DNA from: Paucilactobacillus hokkaidonensis JCM 18461
Lineage (GTDB): Bacteria > Bacillota > Bacilli > Lactobacillales > Lactobacillaceae
Assembly (NCBI RefSeq): GCF_000829395.1
Contig: NZ_AP014680.1
Location: 1,054,001 to 1,118,000, forward strand
Direction: 5' to 3'
Length of the DNA stretch: 64,000 bases
Under the pieces are notes generated by a model, which saw nothing but the letters and a program-made list of their open reading frames with translations, was not told where the DNA came from and did no database searches. Shown in pieces: positions 35,731 through 42,575 of this stretch (the stretch's first letter is position 1; every line of letters begins with the position of its first letter). Made by a program: the position numbers and the translations under genes.

Positions 35731-36183
35731 ATGCCGTATTATTTAGCATTAATGATTGTTTTAGTTTTAAGCGATCAAATTTTAAAGCATTGGATTACCG
35801 TGCACATAGCATTAGATGCAGTTAGTCGGTTAGTTCCTAGTGTATTATCACTAACTAATTTACGTAATAGTGGAGCTGCCTGGAGTATCTTAGAGGGGCA
35901 ACAATGGTTTTTTACCATCATTTCGTTACTTGCTGTCGGTTTTGTTGGTTATTATTTATGGCGTTTTAGACATTCCTTTTGGTATGCATTACCACTAACG
36001 TTTATTTTGGCCGGAACATTTGGTAATTTTATTGATCGACTGCGGTTCGGCTATGTCGTTGATATGTTTCAGCTAGATTTTATTAATTTTCCAATTTTTA
36101 ATTTGGCTGACACTTTTTTGACAATTGGCGTGCTAGTTTTAATTGTTGTCATTTGGCGAGAAGGAGAACACGAAAATGCCTGA
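35731..36183 (+). CDS. lspA: Lipoprotein signal peptidase (signal peptidase II)
   Basis: A 150-residue integral membrane aspartyl protease with four membrane segments that removes signal peptides of prolipoproteins. NLRNSGAAWSIL, the first catalytic Asp region GNFIDRLRFGYVVDM and the second in FNLADTFLTIG are intact. GGAGGAG precedes the ATG. The rluD-family gene starts within its last codons, the usual lspA-rluD coupling in Firmicutes. Confidence 0.95.
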   Translation: MPYYLALMIVLVLSDQILKHWITVHIALDAVSRLVPSVLSLTNLRNSGAAWSILEGQQWFFTIISLLAVGFVGYYLWRFRHSFWYALPLTFILAGTFGNFIDRLRFGYVVDMFQLDFINFPIFNLADTFLTIGVLVLIVVIWREGEHENA

Positions 36184-37096
36184 AGCATTAGAAATTACTA
36201 TTAAAATTGAATCGCAATGTGGCCGCATTGATAAAATATTAAGTGCACAACTACCACAATTTTCGCGTTCTCAAATTCAAAAATGGATCACTGCAGGGAC
36301 CATCAATGTCAACGGACATCACGTAAAGGCCAAAGACCAATTGGTGATTGGTGACGTTGTAGTCATCAAACCGACGGAGCCAAAAAAGTTGAGCTTAGCT
36401 CCTGAAAATATTCCATTAGATATCGTTTACGAGGACGCTGATGTGATTGTGGTTAATAAACCGCAAGGAATGGTTGTTCATCCATCAGTTGGGCATCCTG
36501 ATCATACACTAGTAAATGCATTGTTATACCATAGCCCGCTATCAACCATTAATGGTGAATTTCGGCCGGGCATCGTTCACCGAATTGATAAAGATACATC
36601 TGGGTTATTGATGGTGGCCAAAAACGATCAAGCGCATAGAAGCTTAGCGGCACAATTAAAAAATAAAACGAATAAAAGAGAATATGTAGCATTAGTTCAT
36701 GGTCAAATTAAAGAAAATGGTGGCGTCATTGATGCACCAATTGGCCGGTCGCCTTCTAATCGGCAAAAACAAGCAATTGTAGCTGATGGGCGGCATGCTG
36801 TTACCCACTTTAGTGTGTTAAAGCGATATCAACACTACACTTTGATTAGTTGCCGATTAGAGACTGGCAGAACACATCAAATAAGAGTTCACATGCAATA
36901 CATTAACCATCCTGTTGCTGGTGATCCATTATATGGTCCACATAAAACGCTTGCTGGGAATGGTCAATATCTGCACGCACGCGTATTAGGGTTTAAACAT
37001 CCCGTTACGGGTGAAGAAATGACGTTTGAAGCACCGTTACCCCAAAATTTTAAGGATATATTGACACACCTAGATAATACAGATGCACTAGGTTAA
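36176..37096 (+). CDS. rluD: RluA/RluD-family pseudouridine synthase
   Basis: A 306-residue enzyme that isomerises uridine to pseudouridine in rRNA, equivalent to B. subtilis YlyB. An N-terminal S4 RNA-binding domain (about 12-75) precedes the catalytic domain, with the nucleophile Asp in GIVHRIDKDTSGLL and a CRLETGRTHQIRVH segment. The ATG at 36176 follows AAGGAGAA and overlaps the lspA stop by 8 bp. In many lactobacilli pyrR and the pyrimidine operon come next; here the CarAB-like pair follows after 27 bp. Confidence 0.9.
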   Translation: MPEALEITIKIESQCGRIDKILSAQLPQFSRSQIQKWITAGTINVNGHHVKAKDQLVIGDVVVIKPTEPKKLSLAPENIPLDIVYEDADVIVVNKPQGMVVHPSVGHPDHTLVNALLYHSPLSTINGEFRPGIVHRIDKDTSGLLMVAKNDQAHRSLAAQLKNKTNKREYVALVHGQIKENGGVIDAPIGRSPSNRQKQAIVADGRHAVTHFSVLKRYQHYTLISCRLETGRTHQIRVHMQYINHPVAGDPLYGPHKTLAGNGQYLHARVLGFKHPVTGEEMTFEAPLPQNFKDILTHLDNTDALG

Positions 37097-37123: not shown

Positions 37124-38200
37124 ATGACTGCACGCTATTTAATATTAGAAGATGGTTCAACGTATCGCGGTGAAGGCTTTGGTGCACCAGCTATTACGAC
37201 TGGTGAATTAGTGTTTAATACTAGTATGACTGGATATCAAGAAATTATCACAGATCAAATTTATCACAACCAAATTGTGATTTTTACGCAACCCAATATT
37301 GGTAGTTCAGGCATTAATCAGGCAAATTATGAATCAATTTTGCCCTCCATTAAGGGTGTCATCGTTCGTGAATTGGCTGATGTTTCCACCAATCGGATCA
37401 GTCGGCTTTCGTTAGACCAATATCTTAAACAAATGAATATTCCAGGAATAACTGGAATTGATACTAGAGCCGTGGTACGAAAACTGCGACAAAGTGGAAC
37501 TACATTGAAGGCGAGCATTGTGCCAGAGGCAGATGAACATGCCTTTGATCAGCTAAATGCTACTGTCCTGACTAATCATCAGGTTGCACAGGTAGCTGCG
37601 CCAAAACCGTATCCCAATCCTGGAATTGGGACCAGTGTGGTGGTGATTGACTTTGGACTAAAGCATGGTATTTTACGTGAATTGAGTAAGCGTGATTGTA
37701 ATGTAACCGTTTTACCTTATACTGCGAGTGCAGAAGATATTTTACGATTGGATCCGGACGGAGTTATTTTATCGACGGGACCTGGAAGTCCATACGACTT
37801 GGATAAATCTGTGATTGAAATGATCCAATTAATTCAAACCCAAATTCCATTATTTGCAATTGGACTAGGTCATGAATTATTTGCAATTGCCAATCAAGCC
37901 CAGATTGTTAAATTACCGGCTGAACATCATGGAATGAATCATCCGATTAGAGAAGTTGTAACCACTCACATCATTTATGCATCGCAAGGGCAAGGATATG
38001 CAATTGATCGTCAATCTGTTGATCGTCGTAGATTATTTATTACACACGTCGATTTATTAAATGATACTGTCCAAGGATTACGTCATCGTAGTTATCCAGC
38101 ATTTTCAGTTCAATTTTTCCCTGATGGGGCACCTGGTCCTGATGAAGCTAATGGCCTATTTGATGAATTCATGGAAACTATGCATAGTCGGGAGGTTTGA
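37124..38200 (+). CDS. CarA-like protein lacking the glutaminase triad
   Basis: A 358-residue, full-length homologue of the carbamoyl-phosphate synthase small subunit. The N-terminal half is well kept (FNTSMTGYQEIITD, GITGIDTRAVVRKLR) and so is the fold of the class I amidotransferase half. The active site is gone. GICLGHQ reads AIGLGHE, putting Gly247 at the nucleophile Cys and Glu251 at the Gln. SQNHGY reads SQGQGY (Gly289, Gln290). VQYHPE reads VQFFPD, putting Phe332 at the catalytic His and Asp334 at the Glu. Glutamine hydrolysis should be impossible. The frame is unbroken with a good ribosome binding site, so this looks like a maintained pseudoenzyme, not a decaying gene. Gene symbol withheld because the function is unlikely to be that of CarA. 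Confidence 0.85.
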   Translation: MTARYLILEDGSTYRGEGFGAPAITTGELVFNTSMTGYQEIITDQIYHNQIVIFTQPNIGSSGINQANYESILPSIKGVIVRELADVSTNRISRLSLDQYLKQMNIPGITGIDTRAVVRKLRQSGTTLKASIVPEADEHAFDQLNATVLTNHQVAQVAAPKPYPNPGIGTSVVVIDFGLKHGILRELSKRDCNVTVLPYTASAEDILRLDPDGVILSTGPGSPYDLDKSVIEMIQLIQTQIPLFAIGLGHELFAIANQAQIVKLPAEHHGMNHPIREVVTTHIIYASQGQGYAIDRQSVDRRRLFITHVDLLNDTVQGLRHRSYPAFSVQFFPDGAPGPDEANGLFDEFMETMHSREV

Positions 38201-38202
38201 TC

Positions 38203-40758
38203 ATGGTTAAAAACATCAAAAAAGTTCTGATTATTGGTAGTGGTGCGGATGAGATTAGCCATGAAACAGAACTTGATGCTGCCACATTTCAGGTTGGGAG
38301 TGGCTTTAATCAACTTGGAATTGAGACAATCTTAATTGATAATAATCCATTCTCGTTTTCCTTAGATGGTAACGGAATTGATCATGTTTGTGTTCTGCCG
38401 GTTACTTTGAAGAATGTCGTGACGGTCATTGATCAATATAAGCCAGATGCTATTTTACCTAATCTAGGCGGGCTTGTTGGAATTCGACTAATGCAAGAAT
38501 TGTTGGAAACTGGAATTACGCGTGAACGAGATATCAGATTACTAGGCATTCCTGAAGCAACGATTCGCCAAATTAATAATCCTGTTTTACTTAACCAGAC
38601 ATTAAAGCAAATGCAGGCGCCAACGACAACTAGTCAATCTGTTCGTGATTTTGAAGGCGCACTTGAAATTACCAGTTCCATTGGGTTTCCAGTGATTATT
38701 AAACCGGTTGCACCAACTGGTAGTTCCACACGTCGTACTTGTCATGACAACGATGAGCTTGCAGATGCGATTAGTGTTGCTCTAGGACAGTCACGAGTGG
38801 GGCAGGCGATGGTGCAACAAAGTATTGCAGGTTACAAAGAGATTGAATTAGTGGTTCTGCGAGATCGACAGGGGACGACGATGCAAATAGCTGCAATTGA
38901 AGACTTTGATCCAATTGGAATTCATGCTGGTGATTCAATTGCCTTTTCTCCCACACAAACACTGTTGGATCGAGAAGTTCAAAAATTACGTGATGTCGCA
39001 TTTGCTATTACCAGAAAGTTAAGAATTGTGGGTGTTAATCACGTCCAATTTGCTTTGAATTCTTCAACGGGTCAGTTTTATGTGATTAAAAATAGTCCTT
39101 ATTTTGATCGAATGACGGCGTTTAGTGCTCGTACAACTGGATATCCATTAGCAATCGTATGTGCTAATTTACTAGCTGGCAAAACCTTAAGTGAAGTTAA
39201 ATTGCCTGCTAATTTTGCGGCTAAAACAGCCTTAATAGAACCGGCACTAGATCACATTGCCATTAGAATGCCAATTTGGCCGTTTGATGTGTTGCCTGAT
39301 GCAGATAGAACACTGTCTACTCAAATGCGTTCAACTGGCTCGACAATGGGAATAGGACGTAGCACGGAAGAAGCATTAGTAAAGGCAATTCGAGCGGCTC
39401 ATTTCCACGCTGGGAGTTTTATGGTTGATCAACAGCGCAAACTTTCAGATGATCAAATTGTCCAGTTGTTAATTCATCCGCGAGCCAATCGAATTATGAT
39501 TCTGATGGAGGCTTTAAGGCGTGGATATTCGATTAATGAGTTAGCAGAGCTAACTAAAATTGATCCATTTTACTTTCATAAATTAAAAAAATTACAGCAA
39601 TTAGAGCAAAATCTTGCTACGCATCCAGGAGACGGTGAACTATTACAAAAGGCTAAGTATTACGGGCTAAGTGATCGTTTCATTGGCCAGTTGTGGCAAT
39701 TGCCGGAAAAAGATATCGCGGCGTTACGAGGACAAGCTCAAATAATTCCAACCTATAAAGAAGTTGATCCATCTGCAGGTGAATTTGAACAACATTCCTG
39801 TTCTTTTTTTGCTACTTTTGAACAAGAAAATGAAAGCCAACCAGTTAACCGTAAAAAGGCCTTAGTAATTGGTAGTGGCGGTTTTCGACTTGGTAATGGT
39901 GGCGCAGCTGATTATTTTACTGCTAGTGTTTTACAACAACTGCAAGCTGAGCAGTATTTTACAATTTTACTCAACAATAATCCGAATGCAGTTTCGATGA
40001 GTCCTACTTTATCAGATAAACAATATATTGAACCGCTGGAGACACCTGACATTATGCAAATTGTAGCGCTTGAGCATCCTGATATTATTTACTTACCAAA
40101 TATTCGCAAGCGTTTGGCTCAGGAACTTAAGGATCTGGATTTACCAATTGTGTTGTTGCCTCAGAATGGACCATTATTAAGTCATATGGCTAGTGGATCT
40201 GAGTTTGTTTTTAATGCAATTTTTGATGGTGAGAAAGTATATCCATTAGGAATCAGTTCCTACTTGATTCAAAGTCAAAGTGGGTTTGGAGAACCAACTG
40301 CGGTTGTCTTCCCAGCTCATTTGAATGAGTCAGATCAGCTAGAACTGACTCAACAGGGTACAAACGAAATTAAACAACAGCATAGTCCTGGGTTATACCA
40401 AACATTATTTGTTAAGACTGAACGTTTCCATCGTGAACAAACTAGAATTATAACATTGCCCGAGATAGCCTTTTTATCAAAATCATTGGGTGTAAGTTTG
40501 GCTAGAATTACAACGCAAATCGTTACACCCGGAACAAATATCAAGGAAAAATTACAGGCTTTAATGCAGATAAAGATCAGCAAAACAGCAGCATATGCAT
40601 CTACATTTCCATTTAAGGCATTACATTTGTTTGATGAATCAATTACAGCTAATAATGTTCTTGGAGCGGAAATGGCCTTTGGCAATAGTACTACTGAAGC
40701 TTTACAACGATTGAATGTTAAAGGAAAATTCAGGTTCCATGGTGGTTCAATTAATTAA
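38203..40758 (+). CDS. Degenerate, shortened CarB-like protein
   Basis: An 851-residue homologue of the carbamoyl-phosphate synthase large subunit (normally about 1060). The first ATP-grasp half aligns throughout, but key residues are changed. The glycine loop GGTGGG reads SSTRRT (174-179). EVNPR reads KNSPY, with Lys296, Ser298 and Tyr300 in place of Mg ligands Glu and Asn and an Arg. The oligomerisation region is kept. The second half starts at KKALVIGSGG (551-560), but about 80 residues of its ATP-grasp are missing, EVNPR is gone, and the protein ends before the allosteric MGS-like domain. ATG at 38203 after GGGAGG, 2 bp after the carA-like stop. Open over 851 codons, so probably under selection; function unknown. 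Confidence 0.85.
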   Translation: MVKNIKKVLIIGSGADEISHETELDAATFQVGSGFNQLGIETILIDNNPFSFSLDGNGIDHVCVLPVTLKNVVTVIDQYKPDAILPNLGGLVGIRLMQELLETGITRERDIRLLGIPEATIRQINNPVLLNQTLKQMQAPTTTSQSVRDFEGALEITSSIGFPVIIKPVAPTGSSTRRTCHDNDELADAISVALGQSRVGQAMVQQSIAGYKEIELVVLRDRQGTTMQIAAIEDFDPIGIHAGDSIAFSPTQTLLDREVQKLRDVAFAITRKLRIVGVNHVQFALNSSTGQFYVIKNSPYFDRMTAFSARTTGYPLAIVCANLLAGKTLSEVKLPANFAAKTALIEPALDHIAIRMPIWPFDVLPDADRTLSTQMRSTGSTMGIGRSTEEALVKAIRAAHFHAGSFMVDQQRKLSDDQIVQLLIHPRANRIMILMEALRRGYSINELAELTKIDPFYFHKLKKLQQLEQNLATHPGDGELLQKAKYYGLSDRFIGQLWQLPEKDIAALRGQAQIIPTYKEVDPSAGEFEQHSCSFFATFEQENESQPVNRKKALVIGSGGFRLGNGGAADYFTASVLQQLQAEQYFTILLNNNPNAVSMSPTLSDKQYIEPLETPDIMQIVALEHPDIIYLPNIRKRLAQELKDLDLPIVLLPQNGPLLSHMASGSEFVFNAIFDGEKVYPLGISSYLIQSQSGFGEPTAVVFPAHLNESDQLELTQQGTNEIKQQHSPGLYQTLFVKTERFHREQTRIITLPEIAFLSKSLGVSLARITTQIVTPGTNIKEKLQALMQIKISKTAAYASTFPFKALHLFDESITANNVLGAEMAFGNSTTEALQRLNVKGKFRFHGGSIN

Positions 40759-40772
40759 AGTGTTGAAACAAC

Positions 40773-40806
40773 AAAAGGATGAGACATAATTTTGTCTCAT
40801 CCTTTT
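40773..40806. terminator. Bidirectional terminator between carB-like gene and rqcH
   Basis: AAAAGGATGAGACA and TGTCTCATCCTTTT pair perfectly around TAATTT. The A/T tails on both sides allow termination from both directions. The rqcH stop codon lies inside the right arm. Confidence 0.9.
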
Positions 40807-42493
40807 ACTTTGGAACCGATTCGTCTGGTGTAACATAAACAGTCGATTGTCCTTCAAAAATCACAAAACCAGGTTTACTACCATTTGGTTTTTTGACCCG
40901 TTTAATTGGGACATAATCGACAGCAACATTAGCTGACTGACGACCCTTAGAATAGTAAGCCGCTAATTTTGCAGCTTCTAATAATGTTTGTTCCGATGGA
41001 TCAGAATTTCTAATTACAACGTGTGAACCAGGAATGTCTTTAACATGTAACCAAATATCATCTTTGTTTGCAATTTTAAATGTTAATCTGTCATTTTGTA
41101 GGTTGTTTTTGCCGACCAAAATAGTTGTACCATCACTAGCAGTAAATTCTTCAGGCTTACTAACAGTAATCTTCTTTTTCCTGTTATTTTGTCGAGCACG
41201 CAAGTAACCTTGTTGTTGTAGCTCAAGTTTAATTTCTTCAGTATCAGCTGGATTACCAATTTCAATTTGTGCTTGAATATTCTCTAAATATTCAATTTCA
41301 GCCGTTGCAATCTTCAATTGTTCATTCACATGGCTAACAGCATTTTTTAATTTTTGATATTTAGTAAAGTAACGTTGGGCATTTTGTGACGGGGTCAGTT
41401 GATTTGATAAATCAATTTTTATTGGCTGATTATTGTCATAAAAATTAGCCAATGTAATCTCGGTCATACCTGGTTTAATTTCATGCAGGTAAGTAGTCAG
41501 TATTTCACCACGAATACGAAAGTCGTCTGCCTTATGAGTATCGAGTAATGTTTTTTCCAACTTTTTTACTTTTGTTTTATTTTTCTTTAATTCATTATGA
41601 ACTACCCTAATTAGGTCTCCACCCAATTGTTTCGTTCGATCTTGTTGTGCTTTATCAGCATAAAAGCCATCAAGTAATGCAGAAAGAGTTGTGAAGCTTT
41701 TGTAATTAGTGTTGCTTGGCAAGCTAGTTGGTCTAAAGGCAGTGAATCCCATTTTCTGTGTTTCAGTTATGGACAGTGTTGGTGCTACCTGATCAAAGCT
41801 TCGTAAAAATGATTGATATTGATTGGCAACATTATCAGTATGCAAAAGTTGATATGCCAATTCTTGAGCGGAGTCAGTTCCCATTCCTTGATATGCTTGC
41901 TGTAATTGACCAGCTAGTTTTGCTTGATCATCAGTTTTCATTACTAATTGAGCATATTCTTGGTTGGCAATAAACGGATTTAATTTGTCTTGTTTTGGCG
42001 GCATAATGAAGGTAGCACCGGGTAATAGTAGGCGATAACGGTTTTGATCAGAACCAACATGCTTAACTGTATCAATAATTTTATTAGTTGCAGTATTTAC
42101 TAGTGAAATATTGCTGTGCCGTGCCATTATTTCACTAACCAGTACAAGTTCTTGTTCATCGCCAAGTTCATCTCGGGTCGATATATTAAACCTAACAATG
42201 CGATCATTATCAACTTGATCGATTGATTTTAAAATTGATCCTTCAATATACTTTCGTAACGTCATTGTAAATTTTGTTGGAACCTTTGGATTTTTAAATG
42301 GAATCTCAGTAATTTGAATCCTAGGATAGGTAGGATTTGCTGATAATAAAACTGAATAGTTGTGTCGATTAGCCCGTATTATTAAAATCACTTCAGACGG
42401 GTAGGGCTGGTGAATTTTTGCAATTCTACCGGTTGCTAATAGATCATTTAATTCGTGAACCATTGCATGGGTGAAAAAGCCATCAAATGACAT
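40805..42493 (-). CDS. rqcH: RqcH/NFACT-family ribosome quality-control protein
   Basis: A 562-residue homologue of bacterial RqcH and eukaryotic Rqc2/NEMF, which binds stalled 50S subunits and adds C-terminal alanine tails; older annotation calls it fibronectin-binding protein FbpA. The NFACT-N domain is at the N-terminus (MSFDGFFTHAMVHEL), followed by helix-hairpin and long coiled-coil regions (about 270-430). The NFACT-R domain contains WLHVKDIPGSHVVI near residue 470. The start at 42493 follows AAAGGAGG, so a longer in-frame extension is rejected. Divergent from marR. Confidence 0.9.
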   Translation of the reverse strand: MSFDGFFTHAMVHELNDLLATGRIAKIHQPYPSEVILIIRANRHNYSVLLSANPTYPRIQITEIPFKNPKVPTKFTMTLRKYIEGSILKSIDQVDNDRIVRFNISTRDELGDEQELVLVSEIMARHSNISLVNTATNKIIDTVKHVGSDQNRYRLLLPGATFIMPPKQDKLNPFIANQEYAQLVMKTDDQAKLAGQLQQAYQGMGTDSAQELAYQLLHTDNVANQYQSFLRSFDQVAPTLSITETQKMGFTAFRPTSLPSNTNYKSFTTLSALLDGFYADKAQQDRTKQLGGDLIRVVHNELKKNKTKVKKLEKTLLDTHKADDFRIRGEILTTYLHEIKPGMTEITLANFYDNNQPIKIDLSNQLTPSQNAQRYFTKYQKLKNAVSHVNEQLKIATAEIEYLENIQAQIEIGNPADTEEIKLELQQQGYLRARQNNRKKKITVSKPEEFTASDGTTILVGKNNLQNDRLTFKIANKDDIWLHVKDIPGSHVVIRNSDPSEQTLLEAAKLAAYYSKGRQSANVAVDYVPIKRVKKPNGSKPGFVIFEGQSTVYVTPDESVPK

Positions 42494-42575
42494 TATTATA
42501 TCCTCCTTTGTTAACCGTTTCAGTATACAGATAAACACAATTCAATACAAAAGTTAATTTTTAGTTAAAAAATAC

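Follow-up and report, generated by a model that had tools for sequence, protein, structure and literature searches.

A probable carbamoyl phosphate synthetase pseudoenzyme maintained at an ancestral pyr-operon site in Lactobacillaceae

Two adjacent genes of Paucilactobacillus hokkaidonensis JCM 18461 encode relatives of the carbamoyl phosphate synthetase (CPS) subunits CarA and CarB. Sequence comparison strongly supports the view that this pair is a CPS pseudoenzyme, its catalytic residues gone yet its genes under purifying selection; it would be unable to make carbamoyl phosphate and is nevertheless maintained. Inability to make carbamoyl phosphate had been the core of the original prediction, which fits the loss of catalytic residues that we see in every orthologue. 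We think that the pair has probably been turned into a regulatory part. The window, by which we mean the whole 64,000-nucleotide stretch of DNA analyzed, holds the following features of the locus.

35731..36183, + strand: gene for a signal peptidase II-like protein (lspA), which flanks the conserved site on its upstream side
36143..37096, + strand: rluD-like pseudouridine synthase gene, directly upstream of the pair; a pyrR between it and the CarA-like gene is absent here
37124..38200, + strand: CarA-like pseudo-glutaminase subunit gene, 358 amino acids
37862..37864, + strand: codon for Gly247 of the CarA-like protein, at the position of the CarA nucleophile Cys269
38117..38119, + strand: codon for Phe332 of the CarA-like protein, at the position of the catalytic His353
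38191..38196, + strand: Shine-Dalgarno sequence GGGAGG of the CarB-like gene, within the 3' end of the CarA-like gene
38203..40758, + strand: CarB-like pseudo-synthetase subunit gene, 851 amino acids
38722..38739, + strand: S174-S-T-R-R-T179 of the CarB-like protein, where the ATP-binding glycine loop is expected
39088..39102, + strand: K296-N-S-P-Y300 of the CarB-like protein, where E299-x-N-P-R303 (Mg ligands) is expected
40081..40173, + strand: CarB-like residues 627-657, point at which the second ATP-grasp has lost ~84 residues
40773..40806, no strand assigned: perfect 14-bp inverted repeat resembling a terminator, between the CarB-like gene and rqcH
40805..42538, - strand: rqcH/NFACT-like gene, downstream flank convergent to the pair and a conserved neighbor in most genera

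The loss of catalytic residues extends over both subunits. In the CarA-like protein, Gly247, Glu251 and Phe332 occupy the positions of Cys269, Gln273 and His353, and Ser47 is missing as well, bearing out the claim that the gene coupled to the CarB-like gene is equally altered. The protein clears the TIGR01368 cut-off (369 versus 307 bits) despite the absence of Cys269 and His353; this score above an NCBIfam equivalog cut-off for the glutamine-hydrolyzing CPS small subunit is a likely source of misannotation. The CarB-like ATG lies 2 nt past the TGA of the CarA-like gene, making a two-gene operon, and its 851 codons are uninterrupted and preceded by GGGAGG, a strong ribosome binding site; an open frame behind a good ribosome binding site had been part of the original prediction. 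The residue changes described there are all present, with SSTRRT at 174-179 and with K296, S298 and Y300 at the positions of Glu299, Asn301 and Arg303 of Escherichia coli CarB. No EVNPR motif remains in the second half of the protein, again as described.

The deletions in the CarB-like protein were also described correctly. Aligned with the genome's own pyr CarB, the protein can be followed to residue 626 and resumes at residue 658, equivalent to CarB 743, a loss of about 84 residues from the second ATP-grasp, against the 80 or so claimed; the alignment then stops near CarB 920-930 of 1059, short of the MGS-like allosteric domain. The protein misses the TIGR01369 cut-off (563 versus 1027 bits). 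Its descent from CPS is indicated by an hhalign probability of 99.8 together with the tree and a fold match, in which an AlphaFold model (31 relatives; pLDDT 86, pTM 0.89) matches E. coli CarB (1a9x_A) at Z 42 with 811 residues aligned at 3.5 Å. The match of this model reaches CarB 1051, and we rejected this as a sign of the allosteric domain, as pLDDT falls below 50 over the final 11 residues of the model and the alignments end near 920-930. Downstream, the 52 nt surrounding the inverted repeat fold at -22.5 kcal/mol; a pattern scan did not flag the repeat.

The source genome (2.4 Mb, 3 contigs) has carbamoyl phosphate synthesis provided for elsewhere. A search for an intact carAB, suggested with the original prediction, found two complete pairs, one in an operon of the order pyrR-pyrB-pyrC-carA-carB-pyrD-pyrF-pyrE and the other adjoining argCJBDF, so that the window pair is a third, non-catalytic copy. 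Identity to the pyr copy is 50% for the CarA-like protein and 39% for the first 626 residues of the CarB-like protein. The single PyrR of this genome is located in the pyr operon, and a search of the window region at E values up to 1 found no PyrR-site RNA upstream of the pair. Another candidate PyrR-site RNA, the second in this genome (G000:C1:1555791-1555912, locus L161; 48 bits against a cut-off of 54), stands 5' of a uracil-permease-like gene. The pair is chromosomal, and comparison with anti-phage families gave no match for it.

The pair is a shared possession of the family. Six of seven Paucilactobacillus genomes have it, open in each; the exception is a genome of only 76% completeness. 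The P. wasatchensis orthologue is 79% identical, and orthologues in the five Paucilactobacillus genomes other than that of the window, at 55-79% identity, carry the same replacements, which recur identically at the catalytic positions in 20 further genus groups. This sameness across orthologues speaks against chance as well as sequencing error. The main clade is represented by loci fetched in 21 of the 40 Lactobacillaceae genus groups that were sampled, and another seven groups have comparable dead pairs at the same site; a profile of the CarB-like C-terminal part showed the short form to be widespread among 398 Lactobacillaceae genomes. Among 118 genomes drawn from the order, none from the eight other families had the pair, and their ordinary CarB is matched by the profile over roughly its first 130 positions only. 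Main-clade CarA is monophyletic with support of 100/99, as is main-clade CarB (0.96).

Residue counts over 51 non-redundant main-clade pairs reveal how uniform the loss is. At CarA position 269, every one of the 51 has Gly, against Cys in 10 ordinary CarA; His353 is replaced by Phe, Ser, Leu or Asn in 51/51, and Gln273 has become Glu in 48. On the CarB side, Glu299 is Lys or Arg in every pair (Glu in 11 ordinary CarB), and Asn283 is His in 46/51. The glycine loop varies freely across relatives, and Arg129 was not seen among the residues listed. Near the bicarbonate, Arg303 is replaced by Tyr or Phe and Asn301 is variable. Residues which we take to have roles on the carboxyphosphate side in E. 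coli CarB are mostly retained (Glu215 in 48/51, His243 in 47/51, Gln285 in 40/51). The pair is open in every main-clade locus fetched. Where computable, dN/dS is about 0.02-0.055 for the CarA-like gene and 0.05-0.18 for the CarB-like gene, with dS saturated; the CarB-like C-terminal part evolves fastest, and the CarA-like protein changes more slowly than those of the flanking rluD and rqcH.

Gene order points to the origin of the pair. The prevailing arrangement in most genera is fhs-lspA-rluD-pyrR-pair-rqcH. Five other genus groups have an ordinary operon between these flanking genes, of the order pyrR-permease-pyrB-pyrC-carA-carB-pyrF-pyrE; the CarA cysteine is normal there. The dead pair thus occupies an ancestral pyr-operon site. 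In the seven further groups, pyrR is found at the site together with a CarA/CarB of another kind, which has Gly at CarA 269 and a CarB that is full length or short and variably damaged; a permease-like gene is often present too. Four of these loci, L198, L199, L200 and L202 (groups g21, g22, g14 and g10), combine pyrR and a permease-like gene with the Cys269-to-Gly change; CarB is full length (1054-1067 amino acids) in three of them and 643 amino acids long in L199, and its ATP-site residues are lost only in part. It is possible that these four loci represent intermediate steps of loss. The other three, L195, L196 and L197 (g3, g35 and g8), have highly divergent short pairs behind pyrR at the same site, also with Gly at CarA 269 and with a CarB of 791-800 amino acids at 25-28% identity to pyr CarB.

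The CarA tree bears on the number of losses. In it, the dead pairs of the seven groups branch among normal at-site sequences, with at least three state changes needed; a single origin of all dead pairs was not rejected by the AU test on the full set (P = 0.143) and was borderline for one subset (P = 0.056). The Cys-to-Gly loss may have happened more than once at the same site, and these trees accommodate a single early loss as well as identical losses that recurred. In the course of events that we propose, the dead CPS would have arisen in place from the ancestral Lactobacillaceae pyr operon, with pyrB, pyrC and the later genes (usually pyrP too) leaving the site and carA and carB staying as pseudo-subunits beside pyrR. 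A complete pyr operon elsewhere, where one is kept, would have taken over synthesis.

The pair is next to pyrR in most genera. pyrR lies directly 5' of the pair in 19 of the 21 main-clade genus groups, the exceptions being Paucilactobacillus and g5. Pair-linked PyrRs form one group apart from the pyr-operon PyrR1 (46/47, support 0.83), retain the signature blocks, including the PRPP motif VDDVL-TGRT, and are the sole PyrR in most of these genomes. One 3.3-Mb genome (g38), which from its size and gene arrangement is probably Lactobacillus plantarum, encodes PyrR1 within the pyr operon and another PyrR, 64% identical, ahead of the pair. L. plantarum PyrR1 is reported to respond to pyrimidines and PyrR2 to inorganic carbon in controlling the pyr genes (PMC3582564); the corresponding genes are pyrR2 = lp_1782 and pyrR1 = lp_2704 (PMC7911632). 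The pair persists in Paucilactobacillus and g5 with only the pyr-operon type of PyrR and no neighboring pyrR, so PyrR2 is not an obligate partner. In g5, locus L178 of genome G214 has a second PyrR2-like gene before an ordinary carA/carB, within ~11 kb of the dead pair; the match to the other PyrR of that genome passes through an in-frame TAG. Rate covariation of PyrR and the pair beyond that of flanking genes was not significant by distance correlation, a test made uninformative by the lack of any excess even between the two members of the pair. In eight cassette loci, no PyrR-site RNA above the cut-off was found upstream of the pair (L125 and L036 in this search are pyr operons), and in L109 alone did a scan for the loop motif pick up a copy ahead of the cassette pyrR.

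Retention of the pair extends to genomes that have no active CPS. Nine tested pair-bearing genomes lack PyrB, and eight of these, at an estimated completeness of 99%, also lack any other CarA or CarB; all eight still keep PyrR and the pair. In seven of the eight, PyrR-site RNA elements (RF00515) precede uracil- or cytosine-type permeases or upp, four of the elements being at or just under the cut-off and the rest weaker, with the names of downstream genes read from sequence. The eighth genome, G064, has weak RF00515 matches only, none near permease- or upp-type genes. In a further genome, G033 (g28), PyrB is present and the dead pair is the sole CPS found; this genome is an estimated 91% complete, so an active CarAB may have fallen into a gap of the assembly. 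Persistence of the pair with PyrR and with RNA elements at permease genes points to a putative role, alongside PyrR, in the control of pyrimidine uptake and synthesis.

What the pair does can be approached by weighing this evidence. The original suggestion of a non-catalytic complex that senses a ligand is compatible with the data and is the line that we favor: we give an even chance to a CPS without catalysis having been recruited to partner PyrR, either by sensing a ligand or as a scaffold. In this model, the CarA-like and CarB-like subunits would join as they do in CPS and take up a metabolite in a pocket that is retained, whether bicarbonate, UMP or some other pyrimidine-pathway ligand. 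The ligand state would be passed to PyrR, which sets the attenuation of transcription at genes for pyrimidine synthesis and uptake; assembly, ligand, PyrR contact and effect on attenuation are all inferred. Linkage to pyrR could instead be inherited from the ancestral operon and not be functional. Bicarbonate is a CPS substrate, and a special case of partnership with PyrR would make the pair the inorganic-carbon sensor of PyrR2, the dead first ATP-grasp binding bicarbonate and reporting CO2. Retention of most carboxyphosphate-side residues is in keeping with this, as is the inorganic-carbon response reportedly mediated by PyrR2 in L. plantarum (PMC3582564); several residues near bicarbonate vary too, however, and the pair is kept in lineages without PyrR2, and we regard this version as rather unlikely.

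Other readings do without PyrR. The suggestion that the pair regulates a true CarAB, binding active CarA or CarB to adjust carbamoyl phosphate synthesis as a decoy or regulatory subunit, gains from the retained CPS fold, including the oligomerization domain, and from the two active CarAB pairs in the window's genome. As a general function it is not supported, since eight genomes estimated 99% complete keep the pair with no other CarA or CarB and no PyrB, and we consider it quite improbable overall. An enzyme with a new activity, acting on another substrate through a remodeled first ATP-grasp or an altered glutaminase pocket, would account for the constancy of the first-pocket changes (Glu299 to Lys/Arg in 51/51, Asn283 to His in 46/51), for the keeping of Glu215 and His243, and for the Gln273-to-Glu change in 48 of 51 CarA. 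Yet the glycine loop and Mg ligands are lost, the loop varies, deletion has removed the second ATP site and Gly stands in for the nucleophile, which leaves no room for the usual ATP-grasp or amidotransferase chemistry and makes a new activity unlikely. The pair might finally be a pseudogene on its way out, open by chance, as lost catalytic motifs, a missing domain and a fast-evolving C-terminal part could suggest; an open pair in 21 genus groups, low dN/dS and identical catalytic replacements leave this hardly credible, and decay across strains, named at the outset as an outcome that would speak against a maintained complex, is contradicted by the purifying selection and by the open frames at every main-clade locus.

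The pair can be compared with known systems. With E. coli CarA/CarB (PDB 1bxr/1jdb), it shares the two-gene layout and the CarA domain order, and the CarB-like protein has the pre-ATP-grasp, first ATP-grasp, oligomerization and second pre-ATP-grasp domains of CarB; in contrast to E. coli CarAB, it has neither the Cys-His-Glu glutaminase triad nor the site-1 Mg-ATP ligands, its second ATP-grasp is shorter by ~84 residues, and the allosteric domain is missing. In mitochondrial CPS1, the glutaminase-like domain has no catalytic cysteine, both ATP sites are retained, and ammonia is used to form carbamoyl phosphate. CPS1 resembles the pair in retaining an inactive CarA-like part, but in the pair the large subunit is dead too. 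HisZ and the inactive dihydroorotase partner of aspartate transcarbamoylase are pseudoenzyme regulatory subunits and share with it the likeness of a dead metabolic-enzyme paralogue conserved as a structural or regulatory partner. Unlike the PyrR/PyrR2 attenuation regulators, the pair is itself not an RNA-binding PyrR. The literature searched yielded no example of a CPS-derived pseudoenzyme regulatory subunit, and searches by likely names and locus tags returned nothing on the pair.

These results bear on how genomes of the family are read and on how an enzyme may become a regulator. As the CarA-like protein passes a curated CPS score without the nucleophile, species that have only the pair may wrongly be assigned carbamoyl phosphate synthesis. 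The full-length, partly dead loci would show, as a natural series, the stages by which an enzyme becomes a pseudoenzyme. For inorganic-carbon control by PyrR2 in L. plantarum, no known sensor appears in the literature found, and the pair, encoded beside the regulator, is a candidate. Tentatively, and with less confidence than in a partnership with PyrR as such, we suggest that a CPS was turned across the family into a dead two-subunit metabolite sensor working with PyrR, possibly for inorganic carbon, which may have outlived pyrimidine biosynthesis itself in several lineages.
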